NCBI GenBank assembly: GCA_028293125.1
Contig: JAQGPJ010000071.1
Coordinates: forward strand, 62,001 to 126,000
Source of the DNA: Verrucomicrobiales bacterium
GTDB lineage: Bacteria; Verrucomicrobiota; Verrucomicrobiia; Verrucomicrobiales; V1-33
DNA: 64,000 nucleotides
Reading direction: 5' to 3'
Below the pieces are notes generated by a model. That model was not told the DNA's origin, ran no database searches, and saw only the letters and a list, made by a program, of their open reading frames with translations. Made by a program: the position numbers and the translations under genes. Shown in pieces: positions 30,059 to 55,310 of this stretch. Numbering within the stretch: position 1 is the first letter of the stretch; each line of letters begins with the position of its first letter.

Positions 30059-30414
30059 GGGGGCGCACCGGTTTCGACCAGTGACTGGAGGCGCAGGCAG
30101 CATGCCGGGGATGAATTGTTGGCCCCGTTAACAATCAGTTCAAAACAAATAAACGCGAACTCCAACGAGCTTGCCCTCGCTGCTTAATTGACAGCGACAT
30201 CCGGGGTCAAATGTCTGTTATGACACTGGGTGCAACTTAACAGGCTGGCTGAAGGACCGGGTTTCCGGGTCCGAGGCGAGATTCAACAGGAGAATCGGAT
30301 CCCGAAATTCCGCCGACGGAAGTTCAGGATCTTAAATCAAATCGCCGGATAAGCATGTAGAAACCTGCGTTAAAAGGCGCTGGGACACGGGTTCAATTCC
30401 CGTCGCCTCCACCA
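30059..30414 (+). ncRNA. ssrA: Transfer-messenger RNA (one-piece)
   Basis: The RNA rescues stalled ribosomes and tags the incomplete protein. The 5' end GGGGGCG (30059-30065) pairs with CGCCTCC near the 3' end, and the sequence ends ACCA at 30411-30414, giving a tRNA-like acceptor. The T arm is visible as gggttcaattcccg. The 5' part contains the usual ...GGTTTCGACC... of the D-like region. The tag reading frame lies at 30155-30187: GCG AAC TCC AAC GAG CTT GCC CTC GCT GCT TAA, encoding ANSNELALAA. Length is about 356 bases. It is a standard one-piece form, not the permuted two-piece type. Confidence 0.95.
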
Positions 30415-40570: not shown

Positions 40571-41008
40571 ATGATCATCATCCGTCCCGCAACTCCCGCG
40601 GACCTCCCCGTACTCGCGGGGATTTTCCTCTCCTCCCGGCAGCACGCCTTCCCATGGGAGGATGCCAGTTCCTTTCAAACCGGAGACTTCGACGCACAGA
40701 GGGAGGGAGAGGTCATCAGGCTGGCGGAGGACGCCTCCACCGGCCAGCCGCTTGGGTTTATCTCGGTCTGGACCCCGGAGCGCTTTATCCACCACCTGTT
40801 TGTCGACCCCGACCGGCTGGGGCAGGGTGTTGGCCGGAGGCTGCTGGACGACCTTGCCTCCTAGCTGCCGCCTCCTTGGCGGCTCAAATGCAAAACCGCC
40901 AACCGGGCGGCCCAGGGTTTCTACCTCCATCTCGGCTGGCGCGAACTGTGCCGCGTGGACGATCCCGCGGGGGAATATGCGCTGATCGAGTTTGGAGTTG
41001 CCGCCTGA
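40571..41008 (+). pseudogene. GNAT-family N-acetyltransferase interrupted by one amber codon
   Basis: The frame opens MIIIRPATPADLPVLAGIFL and carries the acetyl-CoA-binding core IHHLFVDPDRLGQGVGRRLL. It meets TAG at 40862-40864 directly after LLDDLAS, then continues in the same phase: PPPWRLKCKTANRAAQGFYL followed by HLGWRELCRVDDPAGEYALI and ends at TGA 41006. The second part is the normal C-terminal half of a GNAT enzyme (C-K-T-A-N-x-x-A-x-x-F-Y-x-x-x-G-W). Without the stop it would be a 145-residue protein of normal length. A single base change (from CAG or TGG) explains it. The truncated product lacks the last strands and is probably inactive unless the stop is read through. Confidence 0.85.
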
Positions 41009-53699: not shown

Positions 53700-55310
53700 A
53701 TGAAGGCTGTATCCATACGTCAATTTCAGCAGGCCGCCCTTTCGGCTCTCGTCTTTTTCCCGCCTCCGCCGGAGCGGAGATTCTGGTCAATCTGAATGTC
53801 TCGGCCCTGCCGGCGGGACCGGTCACTTCCTAGGCCAACACCGCCACCCGTGGGGAGGCGGTTTCACCGCTTCCGGGACCCGCAGGCGGCGGTCGTGCAG
53901 TCCGTGAAAGCCATCACCTTCGCCGGCAGCGGGGATTTTTTCGCGGGGCCCGAGGCACCGGACAGTGTCTCCGGGATCAATCCCAACCGGTCAGCGGAGG
54001 CGTGGGTCTTCAATCCCACCGTCGAAGATGAGGAGACCATCATCGGTTGGCGCCACCGGGAGGGGCGCACGGGACCAACATGTTCTTCAACTACGGCACC
54101 AATGGCTCCTACGAAGCGGCAGGGCAATGGGATGCCGGACCGGATATCGGCTGGATCAACGGCGGTGGCGCACCGGCGGCCGGTTCGTGGCATTATCTGG
54201 TCTACACCTATGACGGCAACGGCGCTGCGGATCAAGGAACAGTCCAAGTGTATGCCGGCGGAGTGCTGATGAATTTCCAGCTGGTGGGAAACTTGGAAAC
54301 GCACATCAGGGATTCCCCTTTGTCGTGGGCGGCCAGAATGACGACAGCGGCCTGCGCATCCCGGTGGAGGGCGACTATCTCTTCGGATACCGTGGGGACG
54401 ACGGCAGCTTTCTGACCATCGACGGGCGCCGGCTTTCTCCGCGCTGGTGCAGAACACCAGCGGCTTCTCGGTGATCGCCAGGGGACAGGCTCTGGCGCTG
54501 GCGAATTCCGGCTCCCTGCGGGCGGCGGCCAATGCCGCGACCTTCACCGCCGGTGCCGGTGTCGACGGAGCCTTGGCCGGCAGCACTGACAAGGCGTTGA
54601 AAAACGTCGCCGGTCAGACGGTGGAGGCTCCATGGAGTGCCGGTCTGAATCCATAGAACGCCTTCACGGTGGAGGCCTGGCTGAAGCCTGCGGTGGAGAA
54701 TGCCGCCGGAACCCTGACCTGCGCCCTGTCCAGTGGACGGTTTGGCGATCCCCGCACCGGCTGGCTCATCTACCAGTCGGACACGGGCTGGAACTTCCGT
54801 ACCTATTATAACAGCGGTCTGGCCACCGCCGTGAATATCGCCGTGGAGGCCCCGCCGGTCGCCGGCACCTGGTGGTATCACGTGGTCGCCACTTGGAATG
54901 GCACAGTGGGGAAAATTTATGTGGATGGCGCGGCTTCCGAGGAGGGGCTGCCTTCCGACCCTGAAAATCCCTATGTACCCCCTGCCAGCGGATCCTTCCG
55001 CTTTGGCGCGCGGGCGGATAACGCCTTTCTCTGAAGCGGGGACATTGATGAGGTGGCGGTGTATCCCGCTGCGCTGGATGCGGCCACGGTCCAAGCCCAC
55101 CTCAGCAACGGAAAGGATGCCGGACGCGCGGTGCCTTATGAGACACTGGTGCAGGCCGGCAGTCCTCCGGCCTACTGGCGCATGAATGAGACGGACAATG
55201 TGGTGCGCAACTTCATCGCCACGGATGCCGCCACCGGCGACAGCGCCACGATCGGACGCATTCATATTGCTGCATGCTTGAAAAGGGCCGGGGATGAACG
55301 TCAGCCCTGA
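53700..55310 (+). pseudogene. LamG-domain secreted protein, heavily decayed
   Basis: An original gene starting at ATG 53700 with a signal peptide (MKAVSIRQFQQAALSALVFF, cleavage after A-S-A-G-A once the phase is corrected). Homology jumps through phases near 53760, 53850, 54055, 54305 and 54435, and the frame is interrupted by TAG 53831, TAG 54654 and TGA 55032. Reassembled parts read ILVNLNVSALPAGPVTS, KAITFAGSGDFFAGPEAPDS, VSGINPNRSAEAWVFNPTVE, GTNMFFNYGTNGSYEAAGQW, SWHYLVYTYDGNGAA, GFPFVVGGQNDDSGLRIPVE, and a second LamG unit AFTVEAWLKPAVENAAGTLT with DEVAVYPAALDAATVQAHLS. It would have been a carbohydrate- or surface-binding exported protein. Confidence 0.85.

Follow-up and report, generated by a model that had tools for sequence, protein, structure and literature searches.

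In bacterial pseudogenes disrupted by a single nonsense codon, one point lesion and no other damage are found in a dispensable, patchily distributed gene with intact relatives. The locus described here lies in a window of 64,000 nucleotides (the whole stretch of DNA analysed) from a Verrucomicrobiales bacterium, whose genome is referred to as G000. It resembles such pseudogenes in all of these respects, its dispensability being probable, and the only difference seen is the youth of its lesion. Among protein families the closest are the GNAT N-acetyltransferases: PF00583, PF13508 and PF13673 all match the read-through frame above their curated cut-offs, and the frame differs from these enzymes in carrying a stop ahead of the C-terminal part of the domain. 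Overall, our analysis suggests that the locus is most likely a young nonsense pseudogene and, failing that, the product of a consensus error.

The GNAT reading frame and its amber codon

The features identified at the locus are as follows.

40571..41008, + strand: GNAT N-acetyltransferase, most likely a pseudogene; 145 codons, a single TAG among them, followed by TGA
40571..40864, + strand: 97-codon 5' part as far as the TAG; Pfam Acetyltransf_1, E-value 1.4e-07
40862..40864, + strand: in-frame amber stop codon TAG, identified by translation; homologues vary in the facing column
40865..41005, + strand: 47-codon 3' part that includes the C-terminal GNAT segment (LKC...N..A..FY...GW); conserved columns kept

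Translation of 40571-41008 gave 97 codons, TAG, 47 codons and a TGA at 41006-41008, with zero further stops. Read through the TAG, the protein matched Acetyltransf_1 up to profile position 116 of 116 and the E-value fell from that of the 5' part alone, listed above, to 5.9e-11. The original prediction that both halves of a GNAT domain lie in one phase, with the TAG at 40862-40864 between them, is thus borne out by translation and Pfam, and its coordinates are correct. PF00583 scored 43.1 bits in the read-through frame against a cut-off of 20.7 and covered profile positions 11-116 of 116; the 5' part alone covers positions 10-84 of 116, so the whole domain is not contained in one translated product. 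In the Pfam search the 47-codon 3' part on its own gave no GNAT match. Its coding score is 9.2 in the GNAT frame while the remaining five frames score 3.2, -8.1, -10.6, -12.0 and -16.5, and five homologues from the same order aligned to the GNAT frame gap-free around the TAG. We take QGVGRR, near residues 84-89 of the 5' part, to be the GNAT acetyl-CoA loop, and the conserved segment downstream of the TAG is presumably the C-terminal segment of the domain. The single frame, the read-through Pfam match, the coding-like 3' part, the gap-free alignment and the open frames of the homologues together show that the two halves are parts of one gene, which to judge from its sequence encodes a small GNAT N-acetyltransferase with its frame broken by the TAG.

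A separate C-terminal protein was considered and rejected: the first in-frame ATG, GTG or TTG of the 3' part is the GTG at 40955, which lies beyond the FY...GW segment. CTG, a rare start codon, occurs in the 3' part at 40865 and 40946.

Homologues, conservation after the stop and its age

Analysis by tblastn of 85 homologous loci (80 plus five) revealed none with a stop inside the aligned segment, and three more loci (L265-L267) are likewise open; relatives whose GNAT frame ends at the same position, a check raised with the original prediction, were therefore not found among the 85. The nearest relatives found (L037, L020, L265, L266 and L267) are 47-55% identical to the query. Within the family, only the organism's own genome among 13 has a match, and in the phylum matches at E<=1e-20 occur in six of 387 genomes, its own included. 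The host order is the one that holds the Verrucomicrobium and Brevifollis relatives (matching loci L069 and L075). Shared gene neighbours were not seen around L003, L005, L007, L020 or L037, and no orthologue was found through a conserved genomic neighbourhood. Several plasmid-borne homologues are annotated as GNAT family N-acetyltransferase; a search for GNAT relatives on viral contigs and a search for defence families both gave none. The patchy presence of the gene and the lack of a match in the 12 other family genomes fit a dispensable gene that was probably acquired horizontally.

Column conservation was assessed in an alignment of 81 homologues, four of the 85 being omitted: L069 and L075 were taken to share their genomes with L005 and L006, L044 is a presumed duplicate, and the reading of L096 is over-long. 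The query keeps 18 of the 18 columns conserved at >=90% in the 5' part; since the 80-locus set was gathered by 5'-half patterns, the higher conservation of this half is partly inflated by construction. In the 3' part all eight columns conserved at >=90% are kept, as are all 11 conserved at >=60%. The difference in identity between the two halves of the query is no outlier, 10 of the 81 homologues being more extreme in the same direction. The column facing the TAG holds a residue in 81 of 81 aligned sequences and shows 16 kinds of residue, among them tryptophan (L037, L020 and L021), arginine (L265-L267), histidine and lysine.

Retention of all 11 conserved 3' columns suggests that the stop is young. 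In a neutral simulation, an open frame with these 11 columns kept was obtained in 76% of cases at a divergence (d, substitutions per site) of 0.01, in 26% at 0.05, in 7% at 0.1 and in 2% at 0.15, and under this model the retained columns are compatible with neutral divergence of up to about 0.1 per site. The claim that the downstream half is fully conserved in pattern is upheld, whereas of the claim that the mutation is very recent only the youth stands, since a neutral divergence of 0.05-0.1 could leave the same picture.

Origin of the in-frame TAG

It is very probable that the GNAT gene is an ordinary, fairly young nonsense pseudogene in its host. One base change, presumably real, would have created the amber codon just ahead of the conserved C-terminal segment. 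Translation would stop at codon 97 and leave a product of 97 residues that lacks the final third of the fold that binds acetyl-CoA; because the conserved C-terminal segment lies downstream of the TAG, this product is probably inactive or unstable. The 3' part would be free to drift, with too little time having passed so far. In favour of a pseudogene are the one frame with one stop and no other lesion, the intact homologues, the patchy distribution of the gene, the use of TAG as an ordinary stop and the presence of other broken genes nearby, such as a LamG-like gene at about 53.8-55.3 kb; against it count the zero decay of the 3' part, with 11 of 11 conserved columns kept, the absence of RF1 and L31 from the assembly and a slight lean of the in-frame stops of other genes towards TAG. 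Random nonsense mutation computed in the codon usage of the host would give TAG in 54-60%, TGA in 19-22% and TAA in 19-27% of cases, so TAG, as the commonest random nonsense codon, is the expected lesion in this gene.

An error of consensus or assembly at the TAG, or a variant carried by a minority in a mixture of strains, either of which would mean an intact gene in the living population, is unlikely. A single base decides the matter, the assembly is in 120 contigs and a 3' part free of decay would be seen in such a case too, but the site is internal to a contig of 244 kb, at a distance of 102.6 kb from one of its ends, and the clustering of frame changes and two stops in the LamG-like gene points to real decay of a single gene rather than to evenly spread errors.

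Reading through of the amber codon at a useful level, giving some full-length acetyltransferase, is very unlikely, even though the 3' part is conserved and coding-like and offers no in-frame ATG, GTG or TTG at which translation of an independent C-terminal protein containing the conserved segment could begin. Of the 47 tRNA places given by Rfam, ARAGORN could read 46, none of them with a CUA anticodon; the one remaining place is a weak match of 31.7 bits that ARAGORN did not call, and the survey covers the tRNA types that Rfam or ARAGORN detects, types missed by both falling outside it. The 120 nt after the TAG, searched for a stimulating RNA structure, fold like shuffled sequences (z -0.87, pseudoknots left out), and a stop at the site is kept by none of the 85 homologues. 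Furthermore, TAG serves as an ordinary stop in the genome, where it ends 68 of the 554 genes called in 864 kb, and those TAG-ended genes in the first 464 kb mostly run into non-coding sequence. The suggestion that the stop is read through thus found no support, given the lack of a CUA tRNA and of an unusual fold, the ordinary use of TAG and the differing residues that face it in other genes, although low-level leakiness may occur.

Two further RNA features were observed. At L101:497-2112 (contig C48 of G000) ARAGORN called six clustered tRNA genes (Gln, Met, three Leu and Lys), several of which score low in Rfam; the Leu genes, unusually short at 76-77 nt, may be element-borne. A tmRNA gene with the tag peptide ANSNELALAA is present at window positions 30059-30414.

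In-frame TAG codons and release factor 1 in the host genome

At least seven further genes in the 864 kb have a frame that looks coding apart from an in-frame TAG. They are listed below; the LamG, vWA and subtilase labels are ones we assume from sequence pattern.

Window 54654: in-frame TAG in the LamG-like gene
L146:1917: in-frame TAG in the L146 gene
L149:6429: in-frame TAG in a vWA-like gene
L150:6434: in-frame TAG in the L150 gene
L153:1294: in-frame TAG in a tyrosine recombinase (integrase), identified by its match to XerD
L153:3982: in-frame TAG in a subtilase-like gene
L254:3952: in-frame TAG in the L254 gene

In the same 864 kb one certain in-frame TGA (window 55032) and two doubtful ones (L151:17192 and L163:3633) were found, and no in-frame TAA. 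Visual inspection served to tell these cases from antisense shadows and gene boundaries, and its depth was uneven, with closer attention to the first 464 kb than to the last 400 kb, and to TAG than to TGA. The excess of TAG is somewhat beyond what mutation alone would give in a small sample in which TAG was looked at hardest; because codon usage predicts 54-60% TAG, the lean towards TAG is close to expectation. The residues facing these codons are A, S, P and N in the LamG-like gene, F in the L150 gene, R in the integrase, and W, M, Y, V and L in the L254 gene, while no alignable relatives were found for the L146 gene, the L149 gene or the subtilase-like gene. This variation in the facing residue between genes argues against TAG having one fixed meaning as a sense codon.

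The LamG-like gene occupies window positions 53760-55300 and shows several changes of coding frame as well as the TAG at 54654 and the TGA at 55032; on its sequence it appears to be a decayed pseudogene. Two in-frame stops were also observed in other genomes: a presumably IspH-like frame of G004 contains a TAA (L208:13806), and a presumably restriction-like frame of G003 has a TAG close to its end (L242:9042).

Release at UAG is carried out by release factor 1 (RF1). The search of G000 for prfA recovered only prfB and a small relative, although completeness is put at 99.1%, and the gene for ribosomal protein L31 (rpmE) was likewise not found in this assembly. RF2 is present (L143 and L173) with its SPF motif intact. 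Where L31 was found in the family, in nine genomes, it adjoins an RF1-like match on the same contig in all nine. Among 141 genomes of the order that are >=95% complete, prfA was above the cut-off in 137, the exceptions being G000, G059, G071 and G095. The assembly of G004, of the same genus, also lacks both RF1 and L31, at a completeness of 86%, and by identity the RF2 of G004 is closer to the RF2 of the RF1-bearing G003 than to that of G000. Comparison with the gene order of G003 did not place a gap at rpmE-prfA: synteny is not preserved, and the closest neighbouring gene is contig-internal. An assembly gap is the likeliest explanation for the absence of RF1 and L31 from G000, because RF1 is likewise missing from three further near-complete genomes of the order, and because TAG is still a common terminator and no tRNA was seen to read UAG; that all other genomes listed as 99-100% complete in this survey have prfA counts against it. 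With RF1 not found in the assembly, normal termination at UAG is deduced from stop usage and not from the factor. From the parts of the literature on UAG reassignment, RF1 and Verrucomicrobia that were available, nothing was used as evidence.

Comparison of terminal TAG between genomes gave 43 of 311 genes here, 49 of 232 in G004 and 78 of 251 in G003; the lower share here fits loss of RF1 as well as ordinary variation. That UAG is turning into a sense codon in this lineage, RF1 having been lost with L31 and tolerated in-frame TAGs accumulating, is exceedingly improbable: the absence of these two neighbouring genes from a nearly complete assembly, the eight genes with in-frame TAG in 864 kb and the rarer terminal TAG than in G003 are set against the 68 genes still ended by TAG, the lack of a CUA tRNA among those read, the differing residues opposite the TAGs, the retained SPF motif of RF2, the apparently non-essential nature of the broken genes, the RF2 of the incomplete G004, which sides with an RF1-bearing genome, and the three other genomes without RF1, which make a gap plausible. 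Just as hard to credit is the fuller version, in which RF1 and L31 were lost, UAG is leaky and nearly neutral, the GNAT gene is one of many tolerated cases, and a large-genome bacterium is early in a code change.

As a single gene, the young nonsense pseudogene that we prefer is of little significance, a patchily distributed acetyltransferase on its way out. If the loss of RF1 were true, the genes with in-frame TAG would be relevant to the conversion of a stop codon into a sense codon.
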